64,000 nt of DNA from positions 40,876,922-40,940,921 of the forward strand of contig NC_054743.1 in the NCBI RefSeq assembly GCF_018143015.1, written 5' to 3'. Positions 14,675 to 58,201 of the stretch are shown here, piece after piece. Position 1 is the first letter of the stretch; each line of letters starts with the position of its first letter. The notes under the pieces were generated by a model. It saw nothing but the letters and a program-made list of their open reading frames with translations. It was not told the DNA's origin and made no database searches. Position numbers and translations under genes: made by a program. Source of the DNA: Lytechinus variegatus. Taxonomy: Eukaryota; Echinodermata; Echinoidea; Temnopleuroida; Toxopneustidae.

Positions 14675-15970
14675 CAGTGGCGTACCGTGGGTCGCGGCAT
14701 TGGGGGGCACCCGCAAAAATTTAGAGTCACTTAGGGAGCGCGCTCATTTGCCAGGTATACTACTGACCTAATATAGACATTTTTTAGATATGCAGTGCCA
14801 TAAAATGGATATTATCTCACTGATTAAATGATGTGAGCGCGAAGCGCGAGCTGAAATTTTTTTATATTCAGACCTAAAAAGGGGCACTATAAGATTTTTT
14901 TGTAATGATACGTACCTGCCTCGCTAAACAGACGATGCGAGCGCGAAGCGCGAGCTGAAATTTTTGTATATACTGACCCCAAACGGGGAATATATTTTAG
15001 GAATCCATTAAGAGTATACATATCTCAGCATAGTCATCTAATGCTAGTACCATCCTTTGCTGATTTTGTTAGAATTACATCCAAACACATTTAGCACTTT
15101 TTGTAGACATGGTTATCATGATTATCATACCCATCTCTAATACAATACTGTGAGCGCGAAGCGCTAGCTGAAAATTTAGGAAATTCAGTCCTGAAGAGTG
15201 GCATTATATGGCTTGTTTGCAGGAATTCACTAAGACCGTACGTATTTCACTAACCAAATGATGCGAGCGCGAAGCGTGAGCTGAAAATTTTTGATATTGA
15301 GATCAGAAAAATGGACATTGAAAGGACTGATTTTAGAATTCATGACGAGCAGACATCTCGCCAGCAACTAATGCGAACGTTAGCACGGACAGGAAATGTT
15401 TTATATTAAGACCTTAAATAGGGCAATCACTTTAAGTAGTCATGAAAAAGAAGAAAATGTTACTACATGAAATAATAATAACTCGAATAGCGAGGAAATA
15501 TTTTTGGTGTACAGTATATTGATTTGAAAACGGGAGGTTTTAGTACAACGGGATTATATATCTCGTTAAACAGTCTATGCGAGCACCAGAAACAATAAAG
15601 ACATAGGCCCTGAGCAAATAATGTTTCATAAAGTTATGAAAAATGCTTCTTATGTAATATAACATAATTATTCAATTCAATTATTTTATTTTCCACTTTC
15701 AATTTCATATTCACAATCATGATACAATTGACAGAGTAACATATTATAATTACATTTGAAGTACATAAAAAATAAATAACATTCTAAAATTACAATTGAC
15801 AATCATCTCTAATATGATATAACATATATAATGAACATAATTTATTCATTCCCACTACGTTTCTCTTCTTTTCCCCCTCTTTTTCTCCTTTTCCCCGTTT
15901 TTTTTTTTTTTTTTTGGCCAGCCGATTGGGGGGCACGTGCCCCCCATGCCCCCCCGTAGTTACGCCACTG
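14675..15970. mobile_element. Non-autonomous hAT-like element with 8-bp target duplication
   Basis: The element runs from CAGTGGCGTACC to GTAGTTACGCCACTG. It is flanked by a perfect 8-bp direct repeat GTGTTACC at 14667-14674 and 15971-15978. An 8-bp duplication with CAG...CTG ends is the signature of the hAT superfamily. Each end has a G- or C-run, and the right end contains the palindrome GGGGGGCACGTGCCCCCC at 15928-15945. The interior has four GCGAAGC boxes (14839, 14943, 15156, 15269) spaced in rough multiples of 105 bp. No transposase frame is present. A LINE-tail-like segment (about 15665-15815) sits inside it. Confidence 0.88.
15665..15815 (-). mobile_element. LINE 3'-end-like segment inside the hAT-like element
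   Basis: The run ATTCAATTCAATTATTTTAT TTTCCACTTTC resembles the 3' end of the CR1-like LINE at 28320-28345 (TTCAATTCAATTCTTTATTT), and the following 130 bp are AT-rich like a LINE 3' UTR. It would be a minus-strand, 5'-truncated insertion. The right boundary is not clear. Confidence 0.4.
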
Positions 15971-16283
15971 GTGTTACCGAAATGTTCCCTCCATCCCGAC
16001 ATGCATAACCTCAAGATTCGCTCTGATATCACGCAATAATGATCAATATAATGCAAATATATTGTTAGAGATAAGATTTTATCAGATTTTGAGAGATGTT
16101 TTTCATATGAAATTAGCATGCACCAAGGTAACAATCGAGAATGCAGCGTGTCTCATTATACCTAAATAGTATCTTGGGTCATCCGTGCTAGCTACCAACA
16201 GGCAATTAAGGGACATCGGGAAAGTTCACTGCCCTAAAGATACATTAATGGTTGATAGAGCGTAAATGGACTTACTCTCTTAC

Positions 16284-16885
16284 AGGTCAAGTCCACCTCA
16301 GAAAAATGTTGATTCGAATCAATAGAGGAAAATCAGACAAGCACAATGCTGAACATTTCATCAAAATCGGATGTAAAATAAGAAAGTTATGACATTTCAA
16401 ATTTTCGTTTATTTTTAACAAAATAGTTATATGAACGAGTCAGTTACATCCATATGAGAGAGTTGATGATGTCACTCACTCACTATTTCTTTTGTTTTTT
16501 ATTGTTTGAATTATACAATATTTCAATTTTTACGAATTTGATGACTAGGACCTCCATGCCTGTAGCACAAAATTTTAAAATAATGGAATTCCACGTGTTC
16601 AGGGAGGAATGAAACTTCATTTCACATGACAATGACGAGAAAATCAAAATATTTCATATTCCATATAATACAATACAAAAGAAATAGTGAGTGATGTCCT
16701 CAGTTCCCTCATTTGCATACCGACCGAGATGTGCATTAGAACTGTTTTGTTAAATGAAGCGAAACTTTAAAATGTCATAACCTTCTCATTTGACATCAGA
16801 TTTTGATGAAATTTTCGGTGTTATGCTTGTTGAAGTTTTCTCTTTTTATTCAAATCAGGGTTTTGTTGGGGTGGACTTGTCCTTT
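16284..16885. mobile_element. MITE with long inverted ends (AAGTCCACC family)
   Basis: The left end AGGTCAAGTCCACCTCA matches the complement of the right end (AAAGGACAAGTCCACCCCA). The arms stay related for about 120 bp: TCATCAAAATCGGATGTAAA on the left against the complement of TTTGACATCAGATTTTGATG on the right. It belongs to the same broad style of element as those at 25952, 42147 and 55994, which also contain ATCAAAATCGGAT-like text. Confidence 0.8.
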
Positions 16886-16899
16886 AATTGCGAGGAGGT

Positions 16900-19765
16900 A
16901 CACTTTTAAAGCGTAGGCTATGATATGCTACGTACATAAAGCTCAAAATCATCATGAGCTTCCTTAGGTTATTCTTTTAGTATTAGTAGTAATATCGCCA
17001 TCACCATTATTATCATAATCATCATCATTTTCATTATCACTATTCACACTAAATAGTGAGCATTAAATTTAATCCCCGCTCTCACATTCTGACCCCTCAC
17101 AAACACGCACCTTTTTTTCAATATGTTTTTTTTTAATCAAGGATTTCTTTCAATTAAATTCAAGATAAGTACAACCAAATTAACAAATCTTAATTTTACA
17201 TCAACAAGACAATGCGGAAATATTTACCAAAAAACTAAAGCAAATAAGGATGGAAGGAAATACCTTTAAAAAAATTGTACATAAAAGATTGGCCTAGCTC
17301 CGACCCTCTATGTAACCTAATAAGTCATAAAATTAATATTGAATGATTTGCAGGAAAAAAATATATAATCATTGTTCCCTAATCCATTTTATATTAAGCT
17401 TCCATTTATATATATAAAACACGCACACATATCCATTTAATAGCCTGGAACACACCCACATAAACTCACACATAAACACACATATACCTTTAAATGCCGT
17501 CTACCGTTGACTTAAAAATTCATCTGAAATTCTAACGCCAAGCGAGGACCCGTCTAAGTAAAATTTCACTGGCGTAATGTCGATACCTCCAAAGGGTGTA
17601 ATGTCACTCGCCAACAGTGGACTTACCACTGCAACGTTATCATTATCGTTATTATTATCATTATTATTATTATTTTTATCATTATTTCATTCTTTTTTTT
17701 TTTTTTGGGGGGGGGGCTTCAGCCATATGCACGTGCAGCCTATTTGCATTCGTTTGCACTGTTTATCTAACCGTGGACAGTTCAAGGTTAAAAGGTGTCC
17801 TCGATTCCAACGTGGTGTTTCAGATATGTCTCGTTTTCGATGTTTTGTAGTGCAAAGTTTAACCTAATAATTACGTAATATAGATTAAAATATGATTTAG
17901 CCAATATCATTTTTCCTCAGTCATTTACAAATCTATTTGGGGCACGCAACACTAGATGTCACCCCCCCCCCCGAACAAAGGATAATCCTGTGCCCCTACG
18001 CCCATGTATCGATAGTTCTTTTCCTCCTTTGGGGCGAGTGTAAGTCGGAAAGTTTATCTACTTCACTTTTCTGCATTATACATCAGTATATACATTCCCA
18101 TCATTCTCTCTTCCATTTTCACCCGTTTCTCTCCCTCTCCCTCCTCTCTCTCACCCTCCTCCATTCATCTCTCTCTCTCTCTTTCCTTCTTCCTCCCTCC
18201 ATCGCTCTCTCTTTTTCTCGGACATAAAATGCATCTTGCATCACCCAAGTTCTCTTCCCTCGCCCCCCTTTTTTGTCTCATTCTTATGTATTCTCCTCGC
18301 AACTCTGGCACTCTAAAACTGCCCACTCTCTTCTATCCCTTTCCAACTTTTCCTCCTTTCACGCTGCCCTCCCGTGTGTGTATGATATTCCTCACTCGAC
18401 AATATCTATCGATCTTATATTAACGCTCAAGAATGATAAAAAAAGTAAAGGAAATAATATAAATGCCTCAACTGCAATGTGTTAACTCGTATATTTGTGA
18501 ACAAACTCAAGTTTCACTATCTCTAAATTAGAAACAAGGAATTAAAAAAATAAAAAAATAATATTGTTTCCTTTTCAAGACAATTGAATTATTTTAATAC
18601 GTTGAACATTTTAAATCCATAAGAGAGCCAATCAAATAGAAGAAGTGAAAGAACAAAAAATATTTACTTCGAAGCTGGTTTAGGTCAAGGATAATTCATG
18701 TTCACTTACATGTAACATGTTTTCTAAGATTCTGATCGATTTAAATATTAGCGCTGAAGTTTTACTGTTGATCTCAAAATCAACATATTCACGATGTAGA
18801 ATTACAGAGGAAAGGTTAAACTTACATAAAGGTAAAATAGTGGAGCAGGTTATAATTATTTCAAAGCCATTCCTGATTTTCTCTTGTTCTTCAAATAAAG
18901 TAATATAAAACAAAATACAAAACAAGTATAGGTATGAAAATAAAGTTCCTTATAAGAAATGACGAGTGTCTCTATTATCTGTCAACTTTTAACCTTTTAA
19001 ACTTCATTTCAAAGTTGATTTTAATTCCCGAATTCTATACAATGCAACAGCAATCATTAGATCAACACTAGTGAAAACATTAATTTATCCATTCGTATAA
19101 AATCCGCAATGTATAGTTTATAACATTAAGATATTTGGATGAGTGGTCATAATTTTTATGAGACATTTGCAAAAGCAATAAATGATGTACATCGGCAATT
19201 TCTCCAAGACTATAAGATGATTATCTTGTTTTCCATGCTGGTTTATTATTATTTTTTTTATATTTTGTCTAACATTTCTCCTTGGTTGTGTGATTATTAT
19301 AATAGATATATCGTATATTTGGTACACATTCGGGTTGTTTGAAAGATTAACGATATTGTATAAATTCCGACACTGCTTGTGAACCAAAGAATTTTTTTTC
19401 TTCAAAATGATGTCATATTTATAATATCAAGTAGCACAATATTGACCGGTCATGACCAGCTTCAATCGAAAAAATGGGGTGTATATTAGAAATATATTAC
19501 TACGAGGGGCAATGAAAAAGTAAAACGCAGGGCCCGCTTGAACAACATACGAAGGGGAACGTATTATTGAAATGGTCCAGTAATACTTGTATGAAATATG
19601 TAAGGAGATGGGTTTAACATAAACTTTGTCTGACATGTCCCATCCAAGCTTGGTTGGAGTTCCGTTTATATTCATATTTGTACAGTTCTATTTTGAGGCG
19701 TCGGTTTTGTTGACCAAGATGAATGAGTGGGACTGTATCACCAACTTCCAAAATGAAAAAAAAAT
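16900..19765. other. Intergenic, simple repeats, no gene recognised
   Basis: This holds an ATC/ATT-rich microsatellite at about 16980-17045, another at about 17635-17690 followed by a T-run and G-run to 17717, and a CT-rich tract at about 18090-18215. From there to the stop codon of tetraspanin copy 2 it is plain AT-rich sequence. The 3' UTR of copy 2 should lie at the right edge. Confidence 0.5.
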
Positions 19766-19768
19766 CTT

Positions 19769-22700
19769 TTATGCGTATTTTTCATAACCGTTGTCGATTC
19801 CTTTTATGACACAGCAAGCAAATACCATCGTTATAATCTGTAAAATGATAGGGAGAAAAAAAAAGAAAAATTTAGTTTTAGCGAGATTTAAGTTGGGTAA
19901 AAATGATCTTGAAGAGCCTTTTATCATAATCGGACTCGAATCATTAAGAAAAAATGACAAGATTGACGCGTCGTATATCTTTTATATTGTTATGTATGCT
20001 TAATACCTTTGTTGGATATCAACGTTGTATAAATAATAATTATAGGCCTTATTCATACAGTTTTATTGATATTTTTCTTGTGATGTATTTATTTTACAGA
20101 GCTAAAAAATTAGCTAAATTGCAATAAATCAAATGGAAAAAAGGTAAGAATATCTTAAATGACAGGATTTTCATTGTGTTAATGAATTGCTTGTCCAGCC
20201 TAAAAATTTTCACATTATTAATATGATCGTCTTTTGATGTATAATACCAAATACCCAACATTCAGATATTTAGATCATTCACAATGATTTGTCAAACAAT
20301 ATCTTTATCTCTGTCTTAATTGATCACGTTGATGGTCCAAAATCCATTCCTTGCTATGAATATCATACAGAGTCATGGTAAACATATTTCAACAATAATA
20401 TTTAACTAAATTTTTGTATACAAAATACACCCCCATATAGACGATAGTAGCATCACATTATGCGTTACTAATTGTAGGTTGGTTTGCAAAGCTTTACAAT
20501 TATACCATACTGTATTTCGCAAAATTGTCACCGAATTGCTTCTTTCATTCTTCTGTTTTCTCAAGTTTTTAAATGTAAGAAAAACTGTGAATGATACTAT
20601 ACCTCAAAAATAAGAAGACCGAACGCTGCTCCTCCTATAGCAAGGTAATGATTCTTGATGGTGTCTTTCGTGGCATGCACACAACCCTTTCAGAAAGAGA
20701 AATATATATATATGTATGTTTACAACTAAAATCAAGAGACTAGAAATAGTATATCACAAAGGTGGAAATAAAGGTTTTAGCTAAAAAATAATGACAAGTC
20801 GCGTAATAAAATGATCTCCTAATGGTTTTAGACACTGATGTTGAAACAATATTTTTGATTGGATGGTATATAATCAAACCAAATTTAAACGTACCGGGTT
20901 CCTCTTTTCAATACTCGGCTATCCTACTTATTCCATTTGCCCCTTAAATCCTTTCATTTTTCCTTCTTTTTTGACACTATCATTTTTTAATATGTTCTTA
21001 TAAAACTTAAAAACCATGCCTCATGTAGCAAAACCTCGACTGTATTACCATGAAGCTTGTAATAGCTCCATGGTATTACTCACTTCTGTCCAGATAGCAC
21101 GTTGATTATAAGGGTTTCCTTTAGGTCCACTGGTATCGCACCCTGGCTCTTTACAGCACGATCCCGGTACAGCCAACCCTTCTTGCAGGTGCTTAGAAGT
21201 CTTATAATCCCCGTATCCAGCAGCACCGCAACAATCAAACTAAAAAAAAATGGTAAGAAATGACAAAGTACGTTAACCTTTTTTTCCATATTACAACTGT
21301 TACTTACTTTTTCTGACCGACAATTGTCATAGCTATAGATATTTTAAAGGATGATTAATATAAACAAGTGGAATGCCTCTGGCCATCTCACCTGCATCAC
21401 GCAGTTCAATATAGCAGCAGTGCTGACTTTGAAAACTACTCTAACTCGCACAAGATGTTCAGTGATACATGGTTACTCTCATGTCCACTTTTTATGAACT
21501 AGACCAATAAACTTACAGAGATATGATGGTTATTCAACAAAAAAACCCAACATGGCCAAAGTTCATTGACCTTACATGACCTTTGACCTTGATCATGTGA
21601 CCTGAAACTCGCACAGGATGTTCAGTGATACTTGATTACTCTAATGTCCAAGTTTCATGAATCAGATCCATAAACTTTCAAAGTTATGATGGTAATTCAA
21701 CAGATACCCCCAATTCGGCCAAAGTTCATTGACCCTAAATGACCTTTGACCTTAATCATGAGACCTGAAACTTGCACAAAATGTTCAGTGATGCTTGATT
21801 ACTATTATGTCCAAGTTTCATGAATCAGATCCATAAACTTTCAAAGTTATGATGGGAATTCAACAGATACCCCCAATTCGGCCAAAGTTCATTGACCCTA
21901 AATGACCTTTGACCTTGGTCATGTGACATAAAACTCATGCAGGATGTTCAGTAATACTTGATTAACCTTATGGCCAAGTTTCATGAACTAGGTCCATATA
22001 CTTTCTAAGTTATGATGTCATTCCAAAAACTTAACCTCAGGTTAAGATTTGATGTTGACGCCGCCGCCGCCGCCGCCGTCGCCGTCGGAAAAGCGGCGCC
22101 TATAGTCTCACTCTGCTATGCAGGTGAGACAAAAATCAAGTTGATATTTTTTGAATAAATGTAGTAGTTTGCAATATATATACATCGAACGTATATCGCC
22201 AGTGCAGCATACACCTCGCCTGAAAAAAGTAAAGGTCAACAAATCAAAATTAGAAATATTAGATTGCATATTTTAGCATATGACGTTCAATATTAAAGCA
22301 ATAATTGAAGCAAAACTTGGCATTAGAATTGAAGAATCTTCTACTTTTCAATTTGGAGCCCTAAAACTCCCCAAAGGCGATGTGGCATGAATGAAAGTCG
22401 TAAATATTAATGGAAAGTTAAAGAAAAATTATAATTTTGAAAAGCACATGTTTGATTTCCTCAAAAAATTATGGAATTCGAATCAGATAGATGTAGTTAA
22501 ATTGAAAAAAAAAATGTTTGGTTAAGCTATTTTACCAACTGGAATGAAGATCTTTAATTACTGTGTTAGTATTCAACACTGCTTTCAGCAAAATGGCCCA
22601 GCAATGAAACATTTCTCAAAATTACAAATTATTTTATCATAATTTTAAGTTACGAAATAAATGTTAAGTTATATTACCGTTTTCTGAACATCATCGATCA

Positions 22701-27171: not shown

Positions 27172-27174
27172 TTT

Positions 27175-28315: not shown

Positions 28316-28319
28316 TGAT

Positions 28320-29985: not shown

Positions 29986-29989
29986 TTTA

Positions 29990-31145: not shown

Positions 31146-31208
31146 CGTGCATTTTTCGTGCAGCACTGTGCATTTTTTGTGCAGCACTATGCAATTTTTG
31201 TGCAGCAT
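31146..31208. repeat. Short tandem repeat, GTGCATTTTTNGTGCAGCACT
   Basis: Three copies of a unit of about 24 bp, each containing GTGCATTTTT and GTGCAGCAC. Neighbouring copies differ by one or two bases. Confidence 0.75.
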
Positions 31209-31592: not shown

Positions 31593-31599
31593 ATAATAT

Positions 31600-33085: not shown

Positions 33086-33092
33086 TATTTTT

Positions 33093-39368: not shown

Positions 39369-39371
39369 TTT

Positions 39372-41015: not shown

Positions 41016-41018
41016 TAT

Positions 41019-42146: not shown

Positions 42147-42723
42147 TTAAAGGGATTGTCCGGGCTGAAAATATTCATATCCTAATACATAGGGTAGAAT
42201 TCATTGAGCAGAATGCCGAAAATTTTATCAAAATCGGATAACAAATAATAAAGTTATTGACGTTTAAAATTTAGCAATATTTTGTGAAAACAGTCGTCAT
42301 GAATATTTATTAGGTGGGCTGATGATGTCACATCTCCACATTCTGTTTTCTTATGTTATTACATAAAATCATATTTTTTCATTATCTCATACTAGTGTGA
42401 ACAATATGTCTCCCTTATAATGACGTAAGTTGCAGCAATAAATATCTAATGCACTAAATCGGATGTCAATCCAATTTTTCTAGTTCTTGAAGGAAAAAAT
42501 TGAATAAACCTAATAAAATACAAAAGAACAAGTGGAGATGTGACATCATCAGCCGACCTAATGAATATTCATGACGACTGTTTTCACAAATATTGCTTAA
42601 CTTTTAAATTCAATAACTTTGCTATTTGTTATCCGACTTTGATGAAATTTTAAACATTTTGCTCAGTGAATTTTACTCTATTTATTAAACTATAAATACT
42701 TTCAGCCCGGACCATCCCTTTAA
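42147..42723. mobile_element. MITE with TTAA-ended inverted repeats
   Basis: Ends TTAAAGGGATTGTCCGGGCT and the complement of the right end, TTAAAGGGATGGTCCGGGCT, form an inverted repeat of about 29 bp with two mismatches. The arms stay complementary for more than 150 bp. TTAA at both ends could be a piggyBac-type target site but is also part of the inverted repeat, so this cannot be decided here. Relatives: 25952-26537 and 55994-56390. Confidence 0.85.
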
Positions 42724-42724
42724 C

Positions 42725-43990: not shown

Positions 43991-44419
43991 CCCCACACCA
44001 GGCGCGGATCCAGGATTTCGTAGGGAGGGGGCCCAAATTCGACCTGATTTTGGCGCCCCTGTGTACTTTTCGGAAAAATGGCGGCCCCTCCCTCCCCCAG
44101 GCAATCATAAGTGCGTTAAATGCATGTTAAATTATCTTATTTCATAGGCACATGAATCAGGGGCAGATCCAGCCTTCGCCAATAAAGGGCCCAGAATTTT
44201 TGTTTAGCCATAATTTCCCCGATCGGCCGCTCGAAGATGTTTTTTTTTCGTTTGTTTATTTGAAGGGGTAGTCTTCTAAGTCATTTCTTAGCTTTATTAT
44301 TTAAATCAACATAAATGTATAATATCATAATCCTTATTTTATAATGCCTGCGCAAAGTGCGAGCAATTTTTTTTTTGAAATTGTATGTATTTTTTCCTAA
44401 AAATTTGTAAATTCTGAAA

Positions 44420-47400
44420 AAAAGCAATAATTACTGCGAACGCAAAGCGCTAGTAGAAATTTTTGATACACGTTTTGAACCGATCGGAAAGGTAGGCCTA
44501 CCAGTCCTGTTAAAGATTGCATACAGTTAGCTATGAAGACGTTATATATTTCAACAATCAAATAATGCGAGCGCGAAGCGCGATCTTAAAAATTTTGACA
44601 TTTTCTCCATAAAGAATGGAAAATTTTTAATTATTTTTGTAATCATGAACACGATAGCTATACAGTATAACTAAACAATTGATGCGAGCGCGAAGTGCAA
44701 GCGGAAAAATTCTAGATTTAGACCTAAAACGGGACACTCTATTCATGTTTCCTAAATCATGAAAAAGATGAGTAACAGGGGATCTTCCTACATTAATAAT
44801 GCGAGCGCAAAGCGCGAGCAGAAAATGTTTGTATACGTTTTGAACTGATCAAAAAGTTCCTTTTAAGGACTGCTTGCATTTAGCCATGAAGACATTAGAT
44901 ATTTCATCAATCAAATAATGTGAGCGCGAAGCGCGAGCTAAATTTTTTTGACATTTCTACATAAAGAATAGTAAACTTTGATACAATATACTTAATTACA
45001 GAAAAAAAACAATTCGAATCTGTACTGATTCCCAATATTTATCACACACAAATCCATTATTCTATAAACTAAAGACTCTAACAGTATTTGACATAAATAC
45101 ACTTCAAAGTTTACTACTTATGTTTAAGTACGTTATAACATGCTCCCACCTACTTTCATTCCACAATTTTTATTACCTGAATACATCTATTCATTCATAC
45201 TCTGCCTGTAACTCTTCAAAATTCCATTTAATCAACCCCAAACTGCTTATTGCGCAGAGATCCTTATGACACCATGATCCAGATTTGTGGAACTCTCTAC
45301 CAGCAGAGTCTGTAAAACAAACTTCGTCTCTTCATTCATTTAAGACAAACGTTAAATCTATGTTATTTTTAGAATATTTGAAGTAAAATTTTTGTGTCGT
45401 ATCCTTTTTATCGTGAATTTATTCCTCCTTCGATTTAGTTATTACCAATATCTTCATCATGACCACCATCATCTCCATGGCCTTCATCATCATCATCATA
45501 TCACCGTCACCCTCAGCTTTATCATCTTCATTTTTATGCTATAATATTGCATGAATTCATGTTTCGTATTTAAAAATAAATGCCAATTCTGCTTTATAAA
45601 TGTATTAATTCAATTAGTATAAGTTTGGGATTGTCGTTTTTTCAAGCAATTTGCTTATGATGACAATCCTTCTCCTGCAAATTGTGAATATCATATAGTT
45701 TATCATTTTTGTCTAGAATTATTTTTTCAGTACTCTTTATTTATGATTGATGCCAAAAATGCTAACATATTATGTTTATTATGTTGTGAAAAATGTATTA
45801 TACGAATGTTATGGATGCAGAAGAAAATAATAAATCAAGTCAAATTCTAGATTTAGACCTAGAACGGGACACTCTATTCATGTTTCCTAAATCATGAAAA
45901 AAAATGAGTAAGAGGGGATCTTCCTACTTAATAATGCGAGCGCAAAGCGCGAGCAGAAAATGTTTGTATACGTTTGGAACTGATCGAAAAGTGCCTTTTA
46001 AGGACTGCTTGCATTTAGCCATGAAGACATTACATATTTCATGAATCAAATAATGCGAGCGCGAAGAGCGAGCTGAAAATTTTTGACATTTCTACATAAA
46101 GAATGAATAACTTTAATCAGTTTTTGTAATCATGAACAAGATAGCTATATAACTAAACAATTGATGCGAGCGGAACTATTGTAGATTTAGACCTAGAACG
46201 GGACACTATTCATGTTTCCTAAATCATGAAAAAGATGAGTAAGAGGGGATCTTCCTACATTAATAATGCGAGCGCAAAGCACGAGCAGAAAATGTTTGTA
46301 TACGTTTAGAACTGATCGAAAAGTGCCTTTTAGGGACTGCTTGCATTTAGCCATGAAGACATTAGATATTTCATCGATAAAAAAATGCGAGCGCGAAGCG
46401 CGAGCTGAAAATTTTTGACATTTCTACATAAAGAATGGAAAACTTTAATCAGTTTTTTTAATCATGAACAAGATAGCTATATAAATAAACAATTGATGCG
46501 AGCGGAAAATTTTAGTTTTAGACCTAGAACGGGACACTATTCATTTCAAGACATTAGATATTTCATCAATCAAATAATGCGAGCGCGAAGCGCGAGCTGA
46601 AAATTTTTGACATTTCTACATAAAGAATGGAAAACTTTAATCAGTTTTTGTAATCATGAACAAGATAGCTATATAACCAAACAATTGATGCGAGCGCGAA
46701 GTGCGTGCGGAAAATTTTAGTTTTAGACCTAAAACGGGACACTATTCATTTCAAGACATTAGATATTTCATCAATCAAATAATGCGAGCGCGAAGCGCGA
46801 ACTGAAAATTTTTGGCATTTCTACATGTAAATAAAGAATGGATAACTTTAATCAGTTTTTGTAATCATGATCAAGATAGCTATATAACTTAACAATTGAT
46901 GCGAGCAGAAAAATTCTAGATTGAGACCTAGAACGGGACAATATTCATGTTTCCTAAATCATGAAAAAGATGAGCAAGAGGGGATCTTCCTACATTAATA
47001 ATGCAAGCGCAAAGCGCGATTAGAAAATGTTTGTATACGTTTTGAACTGATCGAAAAGTGCCTTTTAAGGACTGCTTGCATTTAGCCATGAAGACTTTAC
47101 ATATATCATCAATCAAATAATGTGAGCGCGAAGCGCGAGCTGAAAATTTTTGACATTTCTACATAAAGAATGGAAAACTTTAATAAGTTTTATATAATCA
47201 TGAACAAGATAGCTATATAACTAAACAATTGATGCGAGCGGAAAAATTATAGATTTAGACCTAAAACGGGACACTATTCATTTTTCCTAAATCATGAAAA
47301 AGATGAGTAAAAGGGGATCTTCCTACATTAATAATGCGAGCGGAAAGCGCGAGCAGAAAATGTTTGTATACGTTTTGAACTGATCGAAAAGTGCCTTTTA

Positions 47401-47725
47401 AGGACTGCTTGCATTTAGCCATGAAGACATTACATATTTCACAATCAATTTATGCGAGCGCGAAACGCGAGCGTAAACAAAACCGAGATTTCAACCTTGT
47501 ACGGGATACTCTATTCATGTTTTGTAAATCATGAAAGGGATGAGAAAGGGGATCTTCTTACATTAATAATACGAGCACAAAGGGCGAGCAGATTTTTTTT
47601 TATATTGTGATCTGAAACTGGATAACTGAATGAAAATGCCCGGGCGTGTTTCAGATTAAGACCTAGAATCTAGGCATTCTAAACAATCTTTTATCATGAA
47701 AATAAAAGCGAGCGCGAAACGCGAG
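44420..47725. repeat. Satellite-like array of GCGAGCGCGAAGCGCGAGC boxes
   Basis: About eighteen copies of a GC-rich box in an AT-rich background, typically preceded by AATAATGC and followed by GAAAATTTTT. Three monomer types can be told apart by what follows: type A (GACATTTCTACATAAAGAAT), type B (TTCTAGATTTAGACC) and type C (GTTTGTATACGTTT). The higher-order period is about 332 bp, measured between type C boxes at 45942 and 46274 and at 47009 and 47342. Between about 46390 and 46900 an A-B two-box unit of about 200 bp is repeated instead. Interrupted by a LINE fragment at about 44990-45838. Confidence 0.88.
44990..45838 (+). mobile_element. LINE 3' fragment inserted in the box array
   Basis: The plus strand has DPDLWNSLPAESVKQTSSLH followed by SFKTNVKSMLFLEYLK and a stop at 45276-45386. 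This is the characteristic C-terminus of CR1/Jockey-group reverse transcriptases. About 450 bp of AT-rich 3' UTR-like sequence follows, ending AATAATAAATC, after which the array resumes in mid-monomer. It is heavily 5'-truncated. Confidence 0.72.
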
Positions 47726-48009
47726 CTTAAAATATTTGATATTCCGATCTGATATTTCAAACACTTTGTAGGAAACTTGTAAGGTGGATATAAATCGCAT
47801 TTGATAAAGAGCTGATATGTTTCATTATTACTTTAATTTTGAGACATAGGACCTTGACATCCTTAGGACATGTTATCATATGAATATGATGACTATATAT
47901 CTTCCTATTTATCTTGCTAAGCGCGAGATCAAACAAAAGTGACAATTTAATTATTAAATTGATATCTTACTATTAATGCATAATGAGGGCGCGGAATCTG
48001 ATGATATTA

Positions 48010-48215
48010 TGGCCTGAACACTGCACCCCTAAATTTCAAATTGAACTCCTAGGGATGCAATTTTGAACCCACATGGTGCAAAAATGAACCCCAACCGCAG
48101 GATTCAATTTTTGAACCCCAAATCAGGGGTTCAATTTTTGAACCCATAGGGTGCTGATTTTGCATCAACCTTTCGGGGTTAAATTTTCTGAACCTTTTTT
48201 TCTTAGTGTGTGCAA
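48010..48215. repeat. TTGAACCC-rich palindromic repeat
   Basis: Repeated TTCAAWTTTTGAACCC-like motifs, with the inverse GGGGTTCAATTTTTGAACCC in the middle. The left end CACTGCACCCCTAA and right end TTTTCTTAGTGTG are weakly inverted. It is probably a MITE of the TGAACCC style. Confidence 0.5.
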
Positions 48216-48429
48216 GTAAACTTCAAAATTTCTGTAAATAATATCTATCAATATATCCATCAGTGTTGTAGTCAAGGCTGAAACCTCCAAGGCCAAGGCT
48301 TTAATACCCAAGACCAAGGCTTCAATCCCCAAGGCCAAGGCCAAGGCATGGAAACCCAAGGCCTAAAAACCTCAAGGCCAAGGCATTTCAAACTTTCAAT
48401 ATATGGGACAATGAGCCAACAACAAGGCG

Positions 48430-49870
48430 GCAGTTCGAATATCAGTTTCGCGCCCCTACATGTAGGTCGATCATCAATTTGGCCCCCCCCCCCCCCGTTC
48501 GAACATCGATTCGGCCCCCAGTTCGAACATCATTTTGGCATCCCTTCGAACTCGATTTGCCTTCCCTAGTTCCAATATCATTTCGCCCCCCTAGCTCGAG
48601 TATCAATTTGGCGCCCCCTAGTTTGAACATCAATTCGGCGCCCCCTTGTTTGAGTATCAATTTGGCGCCCCCTACCGCGAATATCGATTCGGCCCCCCTC
48701 CCAAGTTCGAGTATCAATTTGGTGCCCCCACTTCGAACATTATTTCGGCGCCCTCCTAGTTCGAATATCAGTTCGGCGCCCCTACATGTAGGTCAATCAT
48801 CAATTTGCCCCCCCCCCCGTTCGAACATCAATTCGGCCCCCAGTTCGAACATCATTTTGGCATACCTTCGAACTCAATTTGCCTTCCCTAGTTAGAATAT
48901 CATTTCGCCCCCCTAGTTCGAGTATCAATTTTGCGACCCCCCCCTAGTTTGAACATCAATTCGGCGCCCCCTAGTTTGAGTATCAATTTGGCGCCCCCTA
49001 CCTCGAACCTCGATTCGGCCTCCCTCCCTAGTTCGAGTATCATTTCGGCGCCCTCCTAGTTCGAATATCAATTCGGCGCCCCTACATGTAGGTCCAACAT
49101 TAATTTGGCGCCCCTACATGTAGGTCGATCATCAATTCGCCCCCCCGTTCGAACATAAATTCGGCCCCCAGTTGGAACATCATTTTGGCATCCCTTCGAA
49201 CTCAATTTGCCTTCCCTAGTTCGAATCGCCCCCCCCCCCCCCTAGCTCGAGTATCAATTTTGCGCCCCCCTAGTTCGAACATCATTTTAACATCCCTTCG
49301 AACATCATTTCGGCGCCCTCCAAGATCGAATATCAATTCGGCGCCCCTACATGTAGGTCCAACATCAATTTGGCGCCCCTACATGTAGGTCGATCATCAA
49401 TTCGGCGCCCCTACATGTAGGTCGATCACCAATTCGCCCCCCCCCCCCCCGTTCGAACATAAATTCAGCCCCCAGTTCGAACATCATTTTGGCATCCCTT
49501 CGAACTCAATTTGCCTTCCCTAGTTCGAATATCATTCCCCCTAGCTCGAGTATCAATTTTGCACCCCCTAGTTTGAACATCGATTCGGCCCCCCCCCCCC
49601 AGAGCTCGAACATCGATTCGGCCCCCTCCCAGTTCGAACATCATTTCGGCGCCCTAGCTCGAGTATCAATTTGGCCCCCCTAGTTCGAATACCATTTCGC
49701 CCCCCTCGCTCGAGTATCAATTTGGCGCCCCCTAGTTCCAACATCAATTTGGCGACCCTACGTCGACCATCAATTCGCCCCCCCCCGTTCAAACATCAAT
49801 TCTGCCCCCAGTTTGAACAGCATTTTGACATTCCTTCGAACATCATTTCAGCGCCCTTTTGGTTCGAACA
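48430..49870. repeat. 27-bp monomer satellite (TTCGAACATCAATTCGGCGCC)
   Basis: About fifty monomers of roughly 25-31 bp, each built of GTTCGAA-CATCAATTTGGCG-CCCCCTA variants. The palindromes TTCGAA, GGCGCC and CTCGAG alternate along the array. A higher-order unit of about 300-330 bp is marked by GCCCCTACATGTAGGTCGATC and GGCATCCCTTCGAACTC, seen from about 48451, 48777, 49080 and 49345. The proline/serine-rich frames across it follow the repeat and are not genes. Confidence 0.85.
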
Positions 49871-50745
49871 TCATTTTCTTTCCTCCTCTTCCTCTTTTTT
49901 CTTCTCGTCCTTCCCCTCTTCCTCTCCCCTTTCTTCTCTTCTTTCCCCCTTTCTCTCTTTCTTTTTTTCTTCTCTTCTTTCTTCCATCTTCCTCTTTCTT
50001 CTCCTTTTCCCCTCTTCCTCTCTCTTTTCCCCCCTCTTCCTCTTTTTTCCCCTCCCCTCCCTTTTCTTCTCTTCCTTCCCCCTCTTCCTCTTTTTTCTCT
50101 TTCTTTCCCCTCTTCTTTCCCCCTTTTTTCTTTTCTTTCCCCTCTTCCTTTCCCCTTTTCTTCCCCCTTCTCTCTCTTTTTTCCTCTTCTTTCTTCCCTC
50201 TTCCTCTCTTTCCTTTTTTCTCCTTTTCCCCTCTTCCTCTCTCCCCCCCCTCTTCCTCTTTTTTCTTCTCCCTCCCACTCCCTTTTTCTTCTCTTCCTTC
50301 CCCCTTTTCCTCTTTTTTCTCTTTCTTTCCCCTCTTTTCTCCTCTTCTTTTCTTTCCCCTCTCTTTTTTCTTCTCTTCTTTCCTCTCTCTCCCTCCCCTT
50401 TCTTTTCTTCTCTTCCTCCTTTTCTTTTCTCTTTTTCTTCTCTTCCTTTCCCCTCTTCCCCTCTTTCTCTTTTTTCTCCTTTTCTTTTCCCTCTCTTTTT
50501 CCTTCTCTTTCTTTCCCCTTTTCCTCTCTCTTTTCCTTCCCTTCCTTCCCCCTCTTCCCTTTTCTCCTTTTTTCCCCCCTTTTCTCTCTCTTTTTTCCCC
50601 TCTTCTTTTCCTCCTCTCCCCTCTCTCTTTTCCCTTTTTCTTTTCCCCCCTTTTCCTCTCTTTTTTCTTCCCTTCTTCCTTTCTTCTTTTTTCTTTTCTT
50701 TCCCCTCTTCCCCTCTTTTTCTCTTCTTTCCCTCTCTCTTTTTTT
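49871..50745. repeat. 875-bp polypyrimidine tract
   Basis: Almost pure C/T on the plus strand (TTCTCTTCTTTCCCC-like text), with very few purines. It abuts the C-run end of the 6.8-kb element. All frames on both strands are open because stop codons need both A and T/G, so frames of around 350 codons here have no coding meaning. Confidence 0.92.
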
Positions 50746-50800
50746 AGCCGAAGGGGGGGGGGCCAAGGCCCCCTCGGCCCCCCCATGGATCCGCGCCTGC

Positions 50801-50803
<3 letters not shown>

Positions 50804-50833
<30 letters not shown>
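50804..50833. repeat. (CA)n dinucleotide repeat
   Basis: About fourteen CA units immediately outside the right end of the 6.8-kb element, overlapping its target-site copy. Confidence 0.85.
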
Positions 50834-50836
<3 letters not shown>

Positions 50837-50876
50837 GCTCTACGAGAGAATATGAGATGTTCAGTTTTACAATATA

Positions 50877-52106: not shown

Positions 52107-52394
52107 TATTTGCCTGTTTAATGTTGAATGCAGCGTGAAAATCACAAGGCAGAATATTTTTACGTTACATACCCAACAATAAAATAATTTCCCCTTAAAC
52201 AAACTTCCATAATAATAGGAGCACCTGGCAACGTGGGTACGTGCATGCGCTATACAAATCCTGTATTATTTATTGTTATCATTATTTATAATTTCTTAAC
52301 CAGGAGGAGTTAATTTTTTTACATGAGCGTGTAGTTATACTCTCTGTGTGAATGATACAGACGCATTTTATATCATGATTCAATGAGCAACGCC

Positions 52395-52870
52395 ACGAGT
52401 TGCAAGTGTTGAGACAAAATTTGCGCGGTTCCGAAATTACGCAACATTTTTTAAGTAGGCCTACATATCAGACCCAAACTGCTCAAACATGATTTCGTCT
52501 ACCAAGTCAACGCAAATTGTCTTTTCAATCAAAATCATATCTGTATAATTATTTTTACTTTTGCTGGTTTATATGGATTTTATGCTGTTCACGGTCTCGA
52601 AAGAGTCCCTGACAAAGTTCAATAAACAAGTAGAGCGCCTCTGACAGTCTCACCTGCATTACACGATTCCATATAGCAGCAGTGCTGAAAACTACTTTAA
52701 AATAGATTTTCACAAAAAATATCATTCATATAATGTGCAAAACTACGTTCATTGAAATAAATGACATTTGACCTTGACCATGCGACCTACGACTTGTCAG
52801 TGATACTTAATTACCCCCATATCCATATTTTATAAACTATATCTATAAACTTTGAAAGTTATGACAGCAG
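52395..52870 (+). repeat. Left arm of a 4.4-kb inverted repeat
   Basis: Complementary to 56385-56815. Matching landmarks are GCGCGGTTCCGAAATTACGCAAC, GTCAACGCAAATTGT, GAGTCCCTGACAAAG, GCGCCTCTGACAGTCTCACC and CATATAGCAGCAGTGCTG. The inner part belongs to the DR1-bearing family of 21386-22130, here with a degenerate motif TGACATTTGACCTT. Confidence 0.75.
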
Positions 52871-52879
52871 TCTAATAAC

Positions 52880-54018
52880 TTCCTACAAAAATCCCTCACA
52901 AGAGAACAAAACAGCCCCAACCATGAATACCGATCGACACCCATGGCTTGCCAGTGTGTATATGCTATGAATGTGGTTTACTTTAAATTCTATCAAGATA
53001 ATTATGAAATATGGCGATTTCACCATTTTGTTGACATAGAAGGTGCTCTGTATTATGCAATTGTACTGTTCGTATTATGTATGTTCTTAACTTTGCATTT
53101 AATCAAAATGGATGTGTAATTATTATATTTAATACCTGATACGTATTATGATAAATGTGTTATTCATGTATTCATTGTATCTATTTATCACATTTTTTAT
53201 AGCAAGGCCCAAATGCAAATCAGACTTCTATTTTTTGTACCTATCTTATACGTCTCTTTAGTACAGCCAACACCTCATACATTTAAATAAAGCAGGCACC
53301 GTGCCAACTGGAAATTCCCCGCTCACGTTTCGTCACACCAACAAAAATGACTCACAACGACCGATATTTGAGCCATTGGAAATAACAGAATAGCAACGAT
53401 CGGTTTGGATAAGGTGTGGGTGATGAGACTCGTTTAGCAAGAGCGTTTTTCACTGCCATGTTTTCTCTCTCATTATGCTTACAATTTATTGTTTGGTTGA
53501 AAAAGCATTCTTATCCTGAATGACAAAAAAAACTTGTCTGGCTATTCACTTTACTCAGTAGGCATTTCTACAAATAATATGTGAAATATTGTAAGGGAAA
53601 ACTTCGAACCATTTAGCCTGCATCTCCAAAGCTTGTGACAACTCATTGCGACCACTCGGAAAGGCTTCAGCATCAAAGCATGACAAACGTAAGTAAATAT
53701 CCTCATCTCTAGTTCACCAATCTTATCCTTTGCGGGTTGTGGTTAATTGACTATACTTGATTGAAAACAAAATTATGATCATTGGAAAATAACTAAATAT
53801 CTAGACTTAAGTAGAAAACACTAATTTGTCATGAAACCTGTTTTGGAAACCCTTCAATGTCAAACTTGTTAGATCATCATTCTAACCATCATGATTAATT
53901 CTAGTATCTCGTCAAAGTATCAATACATTATATGATATCAAATTTAGCTCTCAATTCTCTCGAAAAGTCGATGCTATTTAGTATTTTTGTTAATACTTAC
54001 CCCCCCTCCCCGGCTGGC
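52880..54018. other. Intergenic, no gene recognised
   Basis: AT-rich sequence inside the 4.4-kb inverted repeat. The only splice-like signal I noticed is ACAAACGTAAGTAAA at about 53686-53700, which alone is not enough to call an exon. Confidence 0.45.
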
Positions 54019-54026
54019 TGCCCCAC

Positions 54027-55296
54027 TATAGTAGCGTAGCTACGGAAGGCACGTGCCCCCCCAGGTGCCCCCCCCCAGAAAAAATTGGCAGAGCAAAAAA
54101 AAAAGGGGAGAAAGAAGAAAGAAAAAAGGAAAAGAAGGAGAAAGAAAGAAGGAAAGAAGAAGAGGAAGAGGAGTGAATGAAATAATGTGAGGGGAAGACT
54201 TGCAAAAAAAAAATCTTTCATGTTACTTTAAACAAAAATTTGCTTGCGCTTCGCGCCAGAATTGCCTGTTCGATGAGATTCATATCTTGCTCAATAGGCT
54301 GATATGGAGCAAGTTTTGAAGTCAATATACAAAACATATATATTTTTTTTCATTTACAAATTCAAGTGCTATTCAAAATGTCCGTTTTATGGTCTACATA
54401 ATCAACATTTTAAGCTCACGATGCGTGGTGACATTGTTTGATTTGCCAAGATCATATTGTCTACGTGTATTCCATAATGTTCCATGAAACAAATGTATTC
54501 AGAATGCCCAGATTTTATGTCTAAATCTAAAACATGCGCGATAGCCTGCATGTTCTCAGTTATTCAAAATGTACTTGAATTATCCAGTTTCACATCAGAA
54601 TATCAATAATTGTCTGCTCACGCTTCAAGATCTCATTATTAATGATACCCAATTAACTAAATCCTATTTATAATTTACAAAATATGAATAGAGTGTCCTG
54701 CTTTTAGGTCTAAAATCTCAATTGTTTAGTTACATACCTATCCCATTTACTAATGCAAAAAGTGCTTAGAACAACCATTTTTAGGTCGGAATGTCAAAAT
54801 ATTTTGCTAGCGCTTCGCGCTCGCATTATTGAAATACATACCGTCTTCGTGGTTAACTGTAAGCAGTCCTTAACAGATACCTTTTCTATGATGCTAGAAC
54901 AGTTAATACAAATTTCTGCTCGTGCTTGGCGTTCGCAGTAACCATCTAGTTACATACGAATCTTTTTCAGGATCACACATAACATTGCCAAGAATAATAC
55001 ATTTTCAGGACAAAATGCATGAAATTTTTAAAAAATCTCTCGCGCTTCGCGCTCGCACTTTTTATAAGGCTTATAAGATTATTTCATGTTTATGTGTAAG
55101 AATAAAACTAAGAAGTGACTGATCGGGGAAAATATAGGTGAAGATACTTTCTGGCCCCGTTCCCTATCGGCGAAAGTCGGATCCGCCCTTGTGACTCATA
55201 CACACACATTGGAAAAAATGGCCGGTGCCCCCTCCCCCTGAAAAAGCAAGAACCCCTCTGTGCCCCCCTAGGAAAAAAATCCTAGCTACGCCACTG
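54027..55296. mobile_element. hAT-like element with target duplication
   Basis: Left end TAGTAGCGTAGCTACGG and right end CCTAGCTACGCCACTG, the CAGTGGCGTAGCTA type seen at 14675. The flank GCCCCAC occurs on both sides (54020-54026 and 55298-55304), with two extra bases at the left. G/C-runs lie next to both ends. Three intact GCTTCGC boxes (GCGAAGC inverted, at 54248, 54812 and 55044) lie in the interior, so the element sits in reverse relative to the one at 14675. A second end, GGCGAAAGTCGGATCCGCCC at about 55167, is nested inside. Confidence 0.75.
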
Positions 55297-55993
55297 CGCC
55301 CCACTGTTTATAACAAACCTAGAAACCGTCTGTATAGGTTCGATGATAGGGCGGCATCATTGTATTTTAGTCGGGGAGGGGGGAGGATGGCAAATCATGT
55401 AATGCTGATGTCATTTTTCTAAGTTGAGTAACAAGGGTAGGCCTATTATCAGCTCTTTAATTCTGTTTTATTACTTTTAGTGTGCTTTACCAGTGGCGAT
55501 CGTCCACCCATTTCAGTAATTATTATTATTATTTTTTTTTATTTATTACTATTAATTTATCATTTTTGGGGGGATACCCACTTGTTCTTTATATTAAGAA
55601 AAGAGACCTTATCTCGTATTTCAAGTAACAAAATGATATTTTTCAAAAAAATCAAGAGACCTGAAAAAAAGACTTACCGTAAGGTCACTCTAGAATATCA
55701 ATTTTAGTCTCTAGACTAGCTAGAGACTTGATTCTCATCGCGATGACACCGTGCAGTAGCCCGGCTTTTAAAGAGCTGCTGTTGATCCAAACAAACTGAA
55801 CATCAGTGCCATATAATGTCATTTAAGAGGGGAAAACTGAATTGTCAAGAAAATGACGAATGTATGAATATAAATATGTAAAAAAAACGAACATAATGCT
55901 TTTCATATGTTTGACACTGGAGGCTTTCCATAGTGGTAATCATTCAAGTCAAACTCTTTGTAAGGCGGGGTCCTGATCTACCAGATCAAAATG

Positions 55994-56390
55994 TTAAAGG
56001 GAAATTCATATAGTAAAATGCATAGAGCAAAATGCTGAAAATTTGATCAAAATCGGATAACAAAGTTATCGTGGTTATTGAAGTTTACAGTTTTGCATTA
56101 TTCCGGTAAAACAGTTCCAGGCATGTCTTCATGAATATTAATTAGGCAGGTGGGCTGATGATGTGATATCCCTACTTGATCTCTTTTTTAATTACATGAA
56201 ATTACGTTTATTCAAAATTTTTCTTCCAAGAACTAAAACATTTGGATTAACGACTGATTAAGTGCATTAGTTATTTATTGGTGCAACTTATTTCATCATA
56301 ATGGAGACACATCATTTACACATTTATGAAAAACGAAACAATTGTGATTTAATGCAATAACATAGTAAAAGGGAAGTTTTGAAATGTCAT
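55994..56390. mobile_element. Truncated MITE, TTAAAGGG family
   Basis: The left end TTAAAGGGAAATTCATATAG and the interior (GAAAATTTGATCAAAATCGG, CATGAATATTAATTAGG, GGTGGGCTGATGATGTG) match 42147-42723. The right inverted end is missing where the right arm of the 4.4-kb inverted repeat begins. Confidence 0.65.
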
Positions 56391-56815
56391 ATTTGAGAAA
56401 GTATAAGGACCTAGTTCATGAAACTTAGCCAAAAGGGTAATCAAATATTACCAAACATCCTGCTTGAGTTTCAGGTCATATGACTAAGGTCAAAGGTAAT
56501 TCATATTAATATATTTATGAATGGTGTTTTTTGTGAATAATTATCTTATAGTAGTTTTGAAAATCAGTACTGCTGCTATATTGAATCGCGTAATGCAGGT
56601 GAGACTGCCAGAGGCGCCTTACTTGTTTATAGCACTTTGTCAGGGACTTTTTTGAGAACATAAACAGCTTTATACATCTAAGATTTTGGTTGAAAACACA
56701 ATTTGCATTGACTTTGTAGAGGAAATAACGGTTTTGAGCAATTTTTGGTCAGACATGCATGCACTTATATGTTGCGCAATTTCGGAACCGCGTACCCGGG
56801 CGTCGCAAGACTTGA
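56385..56815 (-). repeat. Right arm of a 4.4-kb inverted repeat
   Basis: Complementary to 52395-52870: CAGTACTGCTGCTATATTGA, ATGCAGGTGAGACTGCC, GCGCAATTTCGGAACCGCG. It contains a degenerate DR1-like AAGGTCAAAGGTAA near 56490. Confidence 0.75.
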
Positions 56816-57324
56816 AAGCAGAAAGTTAAAACTAAAAAAAAAACGCGCGTCAAATATATTGCACGAAATGTTGAGGGGGGGGGGGGTCCGAGGCCACAAT
56901 CCTTTATGGGATACTTTGCGATTTTGTATTTGCTGTGCTGGCGTAGCTTTTCAACCATTTACATGTACATGTATCGAAATGACATAGAGATTTGCGTGAC
57001 GTAGCAGACACAGCTAAATACGAGGTAGGGAGAGAAATCACAAAATATGAATCTAGAGCCACATGCCCCGAACATTGAAGCACCAAACATTGCTTGTAAT
57101 GTCTTTTTCAAGTATGCGTTATCGCAATAAAAAAAAGGAAATAGCGAACTTCTCTAACACAACTCCGCTTAAATAAGATGGTGTTATAGAATAACATAGC
57201 CGCTGCAGTGGCGCAAGCCCGGGGGGGGGGGGGCACTCGACCAAAAAAGTGGTAGGGGTGTGCCGCGGGCGAGACAAGAACGGGGGCCTTGGAGAGGGCT
57301 TATTGTAAAAAGGAGGGTTCTCGG

Positions 57325-58201
57325 CAGGGGCGTCGATCCATTTTTCAGATTGGGGGGGCAAAATCATTAATGTTCCAAAGGCGCTCGATCGTACAAAACA
57401 CCCACCCACACACCACACACACACATATCTATAAATATACATATATATATGACTCATGAGACCCAGACACGTATCTCACAAACAAATTAATGCGAGTGCG
57501 AAGCGCGAGCTGATTTTTTTTTTTTAGTATACTGACAGGAAAAGCGTGCCTGTTTAGGACTGTTTGTAGTAACTCATGAGGAGGATACATATCTCACTAC
57601 ACAGATAGTACGAGTGCCGAGAGTGAGCTGAAATTTCCTTATATTCTGACCTGAAAACTTGATATTCTAAGCATTTTTGGTACCAATGATAACATTTGTA
57701 TCTAAAAGAACAATAGATGCGAGCGCGAAGCGCGAGCTGAAAATTTTGATAGTTCGATCTGAAAAAATGACAGTTTAGTGGACGTTTTTGATGAAGAACA
57801 AGATATATATCCAAGAAAAGATGATTGCAAATCGAAGCAGGAGTACTTTCGAGGCTTAGAACTGAAAGTGGGACATTTACATTCACCTATTTAATCATGA
57901 AAAGTATGGGTTTTTGCTACAGAAATGATGCGAGCGCGAAGCGCGAGCTGAAAATTTGTATATTCCAATTTGAAAAGCGAACATTTTGAGCACAATTGAA
58001 ATAAAATAATTGAAAGAAATTGAAAAGCACGATTTTAAATAAAGAACGAGTTGTGTATCACCATCTCGCTTGCTGAACATTACAATCTTGTTTTTTTAAT
58101 GCATATCCGGAATTATTGGGGGGGCAAAATGATATGTTTGCCCCAATATTTTCATTGGTGGGGCGATCGCCCCTCCTGCCCCCCCAGGATCGACGCCTCT
58201 G
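57325..58201. mobile_element. Nested hAT-like element with perfect 8-bp target duplication
   Basis: The ends are CAGGGGCGTCGATCC on the left and GGATCGACGCCTCTG on the right. The perfect 8-bp direct repeat GTTCTCGG lies at 57317-57324 and 58202-58209. G/C-runs sit next to both ends. Three intact GCGAAGC boxes are present at 57498, 57725 and 57936, and a degenerate one near 57618. It is inserted in sequence that itself begins CAGTGGCGCAAGCCCGGGGG (57208), probably an older element of the same style. Confidence 0.9.

Follow-up and report, generated by a model that had tools for sequence, protein, structure and literature searches.

The 64,000-bp window of Lytechinus variegatus DNA analysed here (contig NC_054743.1, forward-strand positions 40,876,922 to 40,940,921; window positions are used below) holds four hAT-like elements, E1 to E4, in which a 19-bp box, GCGAGCGCGAAGCGCGAGC, is repeated. 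We consider this box to be probably a subterminal repeat of a hAT clade, most simply a putative transposase-binding site, that has been multiplied in non-autonomous elements; the proposal is drawn from sequence comparison. A closely similar box occurs singly near the 3′ end of family A, a hAT family that has a transposase gene (see below), the boxes of the non-autonomous elements form arrays of one orientation, and the box persists between distantly related array units.

A scan of the window at a threshold of ≤3 mismatches returned 25 boxes, compared with none in 100 shuffled sequences. E1 to E4 hold all of them, leaving 0 of 25 outside elements bounded by terminal inverted repeats (TIRs). The central heptamer, GCGAAGC, is found 17 times against 2.1 expected; one copy, at 58445, lies outside any element and has no box around it. 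The box consists of arms of GC, GA/GA and GCGC flanking a GAA triloop, and we assume sheared G·A pairing within these arms. A search of the whole genome (869.6 Mb, 33 contigs), which an earlier note on this DNA had proposed, gave 7,467 exact copies on one strand and 7,098 on the other (14,565 in all). Read backwards, the box gave 986 and 901 copies genome-wide, a control that is not independent because the reversed box is the box shifted by one base. A search of IMG/VR with the box returned 36 stretches with one match each. The exact string had no match in one open-access literature library; Repbase was outside the scope of this search, so we do not claim that the box is undescribed. Nor do the open-access passages available on GCGAAGC and transposons contain anything on hAT ends. 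The claim of the earlier note that the box is repeated across four elements is thus borne out, and within the window the box is not equally common outside them.

The elements E1 to E4 and their box arrays

The elements, with their TIRs and target site duplications (TSDs), and their boxes are the following:

14675..15970, + strand: E1, non-autonomous hAT-like element, TIR CAGTGGCGTA, TSD GTGTTACC
14833, 14937, 15150 and 15263, + strand: the four boxes of E1
14937..14955, + strand: representative perfect box copy inside E1 (window scan), GCGAGCGC-GAA-GCGCGAGC
15928..15970, − strand: box-distal end of E1, palindrome GGGGGGCACGTGCCCCCC plus TIR; by eye it resembles the transposase-5′ end of family A
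43999..50799, + strand: E2, non-autonomous hAT-like element, TIR CAGGCGCGGATCC, TSD CCCCACAC
44346-47726, + strand: the 19 boxes of E2 (≤5 mismatches), followed by a minisatellite and then a pyrimidine tract
46387..46405, + strand: perfect box copy inside the E2 array (window scan)
46579, 57719 and 57930, + strand: further perfect box copies (window scan)
54027..55297, − strand: E3, non-autonomous hAT-like element, right TIR CAGTGGCGTAGCTA, left TIR decayed, TSD GCCCCACT
− strand, within E3: the five boxes of E3 (≤5 mismatches)
57325..58201, + strand: E4, non-autonomous hAT-like element, TIR CAGGGGCGTCGATCC, TSD GTTCTCGG
57492, 57719 and 57930, + strand: the three boxes of E4

The TSDs of E1, E2 and E4 are perfect over 8 bp at these coordinates, while that of E3 is perfect over 8 bp only with a one-base offset at each end (54028-55297). 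The left TIR of E3 has decayed, reading TAGTAGCG in place of CAGTGGCG. Short TIRs of the CAGNG type are a feature of hAT transposons, and E1 to E4 match this type with the exception of the decayed left end of E3; all of their TIRs fit CAGNGGCG or CAGGCGCG. TIRs of hAT pattern together with 8-bp TSDs support the hAT-like nature that had been assigned to the four elements. Their termini had also been described as different, which is right in that the TIRs vary but overstated, since E1 and E3 have a common TIR type and all are variants of one hAT pattern. No hAT transposase gene was found in E1 to E4 among stop-to-stop frames of at least 130 aa after filtering of low-complexity frames, the sole frame of that length being a reading of the E2 minisatellite (48305-48892), and the elements are therefore called non-autonomous. 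With lengths of 0.9-6.8 kb, they do not qualify as miniature inverted-repeat transposable elements (MITEs; a few hundred bp, non-coding).

Within one element, the boxes have a single orientation and are spaced by about 90-137 bp or by larger multiples. Twenty loci selected for boxes (loci are denoted by L, contigs by C) were searched for TIR and TSD pairs; complete elements were obtained in only 5, the elements at the remaining ones being long, nested or cut. Ten TIR-bounded elements were compared, namely E1 to E4, L017, L019, L021, L025, L026 and L028, of which L028 has TIRs only and no TSD, while L025 and L026 agree at 7 of 8 TSD bases. All 52 boxes of these elements (≤5 mismatches) are unidirectional within each element, and nine of the ten have, at the box-distal end, a palindrome made of a G-run and a C-run, such as GGGGGGCACGTGCCCCCC, which none of them has at the box-side end. 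In 19 of 29 box clusters the first box is preceded within 900 bp by an inward hAT TIR motif, and in 3 of 29 the last box is followed by this motif in identical sense; the clusters, each of which required a box with ≤1 mismatch, come from 21 sources, 20 of them chosen for holding boxes.

The array units can also be recognised by their flanks alone. A flank-only profile (position-specific scoring matrix) was trained on box flanks with the window excluded, taking 105,740 background positions of the window as the null. Scores above the null maximum were obtained for 4 of 4 units in E1, 17 of 19 in E2 and 3 of 3 in E4, and for only 1 of 5 in E3. Flank sharing among the E1, E2 and E4 units therefore means that the arrays are for the most part homologous even where the element ends differ. 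A unit model built with MAFFT and nhmmer mis-mapped the box columns and was replaced by this profile.

Other features of the box-bearing elements were recorded. L010:1519-8207 and L013:1787-8492 are inverted 6.7-kb copies, 98.5% identical and about 65 kb apart on C1, with one box array each. The E1-type element L021:3539-4944 has, near its box-side TIR, a perfect hairpin with 9-bp arms and a GAA loop, whose E1 counterpart (14736-14745) is GAGCGCGCTC, without the loop. The region 48430-50745 of E2 comprises a 26-27-bp minisatellite (TTCGAACATCAATTTGGCGCCCC type) and then a pyrimidine tract of about 0.9 kb, and stretches related to it occur in L018 and L022. At 45230-45400, E2 has by eye a reading like the end of a non-LTR (long terminal repeat) reverse transcriptase; it lies in a part that E2 has in common with L009 and L027.

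Family A and foldbacks in other hAT 3′ flanks

At least 63 Dimer_Tnp_hAT matches were obtained (150 of 187 candidates scored), and the 3′ side was inspected at 24 of them and at L053, which came from a protein search. Nine of these loci, L029 and eight further copies, constitute family A and are treated as one family, not as nine independent cases. L029 has an 868-aa frame with DUF4371 (PF14291, 2.4e-17) and Dimer_Tnp_hAT (PF05699, 1.4e-8); the other copies are 93-97% identical to it over the aligned parts, several of them with stops. A single box, TCGAGCGCGAAGCGCGAGT, is present in each of the 3′ flanks (9/9) at 94-106 bp from the 3′ end, that is, within the approximately 200 bp from the element end that we count as subterminal. 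This box agrees with the array box at 17 of 19 positions, yet its flanks, scored in two copies against the array units, do no better than random DNA (p 0.39 and 0.43), and therefore the box is shared where the surroundings are not. The whole element was read for L029 only, whose 5′ tip is lost in a simple repeat; the copy at 45.23 Mb on C5 has the TSD CCGATCGG at both ends (L043 and L055, the middle being outside the sequence read). Searches for TIR and TSD pairs around the genes found none at L052, L053 and L054, nor at L029, L030 and L031. Because family A looks, by eye, at its 5′ end like the non-autonomous elements at their box-distal end, the boxes belong to the transposase-3′ side. Looking for boxes in autonomous hAT copies, another suggestion of the earlier note, thus revealed the same box in family A and analogues in the 3′ flanks of further transposase loci.

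A GCGNAGC foldback of at least 5 pairs is found in 12 of 26 transposase 3′ flanks (25 distinct loci, L037 and L052 being one place): the nine of family A plus L030, L053 and L056. All of these foldbacks are on the minus strand relative to the gene; shuffled sequences gave 0.21 per set, and none was found in the 53.8 kb of the window outside elements. L030, L053 and L056 have other arms than the box, with the same GC-GNA-GC core and the same strand. L030 contains two adjacent perfect hairpins with 8-bp arms and loops GTA and GGA (ATGTGCGC-GTA-GCGCACAT and TCGAGCGC-GGA-GCGCTCGA), and on C1 the arms of the GGA hairpin recur at a place similarly far (0.63 kb) from an equal-scoring hAT match. L056 has three perfect hairpins with differing arms and loops GAA, GTA and GAA (CCGCGC-GAA-GCGCGG, GTGCGCGC-GTA-GCGCGCAC and GCACGC-GAA-GCGTGC). 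The transposase of L053 is 28% identical to that of L029, and the 3′ flank of this locus has tandem units, about 180 bp long, in which GCGAGC-GGA-GCGAGC and near variants of it occur. L050/L054 carry GCGAGC-GGA-GTGAGC and a 3′ TIR, CAGGGGCGGATCC, near that of E2; L050 is outside the 12 because a T for C breaks the core. The placement at L030, L050/L054, L053 and L056 would be subterminal. A survey of GC-NNN-GC foldbacks over 337 kb, from loci chosen for boxes and transposases, with near-box sites removed and identical contexts collapsed, gave at least 5 pairs at 6 of 55 GNA loops versus 7 of 337 other loops (p 0.005), a modest difference. Upstream of the DUF4371 hAT frame of L053 (50-1240 and 1550-2100), a reading that by eye resembles an OTU protease (GDGNCFFHCV) was seen together with a proline-rich tandem repeat, both possibly parts of a fused transposase gene.

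As for its other contents, the window has, immediately right of E4 (59812-61914, + strand), a TRIM-like open frame of 701 aa that contains RING and B-box zinc fingers, a tetraspanin match in a 166-aa open frame (9766-10263, − strand) and tandem arrays unrelated to the box at 5580-6221 (214-bp units), 21443-22017 (163-bp units) and 63349-63568 (18-49-bp units).

Conservation, folding and competing explanations

Of the sites found by their flanks, with a profile trained on the flanks of boxes, 143 of 155 have the box in register. Box and spacer were compared on these 143 slots, the neighbours being picked and the divergence measured on separate parts of the spacer; the 6-mismatch filter removed the 12 other slots and thereby lowers box divergence. 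In the most distant pairs, the box is less diverged than the spacer (41/247 vs 228/878, and 24/133 vs 50/183). In close pairs, the first split gave 14/532 for the box vs 54/2372 for the spacer, and 18/494 vs 115/2170, while in the other split the box diverges more (13/456 vs 16/1058, and 39/589 vs 42/1363). A first nearest-neighbour comparison, according to which boxes diverge 2-7 times faster than spacers in close pairs, included out-of-register slots and was discarded. The earlier note had described the box as conserved while the spacers drift, and had named equally fast divergence as the observation that would contradict this. Over long distances the description holds; at short range it fails, the box decaying like the spacer or faster. 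The selection it had invoked is therefore partly right, with constraint seen in distant pairs and none in close ones. Since close pairs show no extra constraint, it appears that resident copies decay and that constraint acts at the level of spread; the pattern fits a site that decays in resident copies and is retained in spreading lineages.

Loop composition was tallied from the places listed first in contig order, where a few amplified families may dominate, so that the counts are not independent. The loop is GNA in 163 of 200 places among the matches listed for three arm sequences. GCGAGC-NNN-GCGAGC has 2,434 places (among 100 listed, GNA 90 with GAA 36, GTA 29 and GGA 25; ANA 6; other 4), GAGCGC-NNN-GCGCTC 229 (among 50 listed, GNA 35, ANA 12, other 3) and GCACGC-NNN-GCGTGC 620 (among 50 listed, GNA 38, AAA 11, other 1). 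Read in reverse, the first gave 831 places, a control that is not independent, as longer boxes such as those of L053 contain it; the second gave 51, this control being itself a foldback, and the third 2. The stem control TGAGCAC-N3 had one place only and is uninformative on loops. For the GAGCGC/GCGCTC arms, the sole ones tested, the 229 places with a 3-base centre compare with 14 for a 4-base centre. In the box family, the 143 in-register slots comprise 106 GNA, 35 AAA and 2 other loops, and the last A of the loop is invariant. An ANA loop is the product of a CpG transition in GNA, and 119 of 217 slot mutations are CpG transitions in the box. The variant GCAAAGC, previously thought to keep the stem and change only the loop, therefore exists, but no designed loop change is needed, because AAA results from one of the box's ten possible CpG transitions. 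Among GC-rich triloop hairpins outside the box, 9 of 62 have GNA (shuffles, 3-9 among 32-43 triloops each), and hairpins in general are thus not enriched in GNA.

Double CpG transitions that keep pairing number 42 (6T14A, the rarest of the four classes) and 122 (7A13T), and those that break it 56 (6T13T) and 53 (7A14A). The compensatory odds ratio is 1.73, about two standard errors, and the count of 122 is inflated by the pairs of one subfamily. The members of this subfamily have two boxes about 198 bp apart (G000:C1:5246116/5246314 and similar), both carrying the pairing-preserving GCGAGCACGAAGTGCGAGC. The predicted DNA fold of the box, at −4.2 kcal/mol, equal for the AAA-loop variant, is not more stable than that of shuffles (z 0.24), GC-rich 19-mer shuffles folding too, and for GCGAGC-GGA-GCGAGC hardly any fold is predicted (−0.1 kcal/mol, z 1.28). 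Tandem sheared G·A pairs are stable in this context, and the folding model probably does not score them.

The explanation that we favour builds on the single box of the transposase-bearing family A, some 100 bp in from the 3′ end, and on the non-autonomous relatives, which carry 2-19 boxes of one orientation, at about 110-bp spacing or multiples, inside the TIRs of related hAT families. The hAT transposases would act as multimers with several DNA-binding domains, and a string of boxes could raise the avidity for shared or related transposases and let non-coding elements compete; copies that moved would have had good boxes, and resident copies would then be free to decay. The transposase would be the binder, the arrays would raise mobility and binding would be to duplex DNA. 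Several observations weigh against this explanation. The transposase moving E1 to E4 was not found, and the TIR of family A, CAGTGGCGGCACC, differs from theirs. A BED domain was not seen in the protein of family A, the best zinc-finger match being zf-C17orf113 (E 0.96). A GCGNAGC foldback of at least 5 pairs is lacking in 14 of 26 transposase 3′ flanks, some of which may end before the element does, and box decay is equal to or above spacer decay in three of the four closest bins. Finally, a plain binding site leaves unexplained the self-complementary, varied arms around a 3-base GNA loop. Because a role of the fold would better account for the GNA centre, the 3-base spacing and the complementary arms that change, we rank second, while considering it unlikely, the possibility that the box acts as a structure, a GNA mini-hairpin formed on one strand in single-stranded or supercoiled DNA and recognised by the transposase or by a replication or repair factor, in the manner of bacterial single-strand transposases. 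A known series of stable heptamers has a GNA loop with two or more G-C pairs closing it, GCGAAGC having a melting temperature of 78°C (PMC4686876), and both the core GCGNAGC and the consensus box conform to this series. The loop counts of the three arm sequences, the preference for a 3-base centre, the constant final A and the differing perfect arms in hAT 3′ flanks, with GNA always on the minus strand relative to the gene, point in the same direction. On the other side stand the AAA loop in a quarter of the slots, the weak and partly subfamily-driven compensation, the unremarkable z values, the absence of GNA enrichment in triloop hairpins and the probable dominance of few amplified families among the listed places; moreover, a duplex-reading protein specific for CGNAGCG would yield the same loop and strand. 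As for the hairpin raised by the earlier note, the box folds no better than its shuffles and compensatory double changes in it are weakly favoured, by way of one subfamily; across loci, however, the arms change with complementarity, GNA loop and strand retained. A hairpin function is plausible. A bolder form, according to which several hAT lineages converged on, or inherited, strand-specific d(GCGNAGC) mini-hairpins as end markers, with the fold and not the letters being read as the arms vary among families, tandem sheared G·A arms included, around a constant GNA loop, 3-base spacing and strand, and non-autonomous relatives multiplied them to capture transposase, we regard as rather unlikely.

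It is improbable that the arrays are mere passengers, i.e., an ancestral internal tandem repeat that expanded by unequal exchange and hitch-hiked, its homogenised units looking conserved. Owing to the shared flanks of the E1, E2 and E4 units, much of the box sharing does reflect common descent, close pairs show no extra box constraint, and transposon-internal repeats that become satellites are known from Tetris (PMC4079207). Yet homogenisation would act on box and spacer together, so that the persistence of the box in distant units is left unexplained, as are the family A box without flank homology and the analogues at L053 and L056. Very improbable is binding of the box by a chromatin or zinc-finger protein of the host that aids or represses the elements, such as a CGG-binding protein domesticated from a hAT transposon. 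Domesticated hAT DNA-binding proteins with CGC/GCGC preference occur in other animals (PMC8097297), but such a factor alone leaves unexplained why the box keeps to a place some 100 bp from the transposase-3′ end.

Comparison with known systems

The system is ordinary in kind, a hAT family with non-autonomous relatives, and unusual in its motif and in the multiplication of this motif. The BED domains of Hermes bind many subterminal repeats, asymmetrically at the two ends (PMC10368747). Like the present elements, Hermes has an 8-bp TSD and short TIRs, and Hermes, Tol2, Ac and Tag1 are alike in their required sites beyond the TIR and their asymmetric ends (PMC10368747). The Hermes repeat is the 4-bp AAG(T/C); the site described here is a foldback of 15-19 bp centred on GNA, of which family A has one and the non-autonomous elements have several. 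BED proteins that derive from hAT elements frequently favour CGG/CGC, several of them GCGC, and for all four hAT-encoded proteins reported in the passages available, the motifs match their own subterminal regions, some being AT-rich (PMC8097297). DUF4371 and hATC are common to family A and BuT2 of the Tip group (BuT2, Tip100), a likeness of domains alone; the main text of the BuT2 paper does not use the term "subterminal" (PMC3942097). If the box is a subterminal repeat read by the transposase, its 14,565 exact copies would point to non-coding elements winning by multiplication of docking sites, which would be a rule for the success of such elements.

The hAT MITE Mar is likewise reported to be non-coding and moved in trans. 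Tetris/TIR-220 resemble the present elements in being non-coding, moved in trans and provided with internal tandem repeats; the Tetris repeats sit in the TIRs, whereas E1 to E4, of the kilobase sizes given above, have one GC box per unit among AT-rich spacers (PMC4079207). The repetitive extragenic palindromes (REPs) of bacteria and the REP-associated tyrosine transposases (RAYTs) share with the box system GC-rich palindromes that are tied to a transposase and can fold into stem-loops when single-stranded, and a few of the REPs given there contain GCGNAGC by eye (PMC2817692); the RAYTs are bacterial tyrosine transposases, which makes this an analogy only. If the mini-hairpins were indeed end markers, they would be a eukaryotic cut-and-paste counterpart to hairpin-reading transposition. 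The d(GCGAAGC)/GNA mini-hairpins have the exact heptamer core, the GNA loop and the G-C pairs in common with the box and, unlike this genomic box, have been described as oligonucleotides and aptamer parts in the passages available (PMC4686876). Should the fold be read, the box would provide a natural setting for an extremely compact and stable DNA hairpin and a new mode of hAT end recognition.

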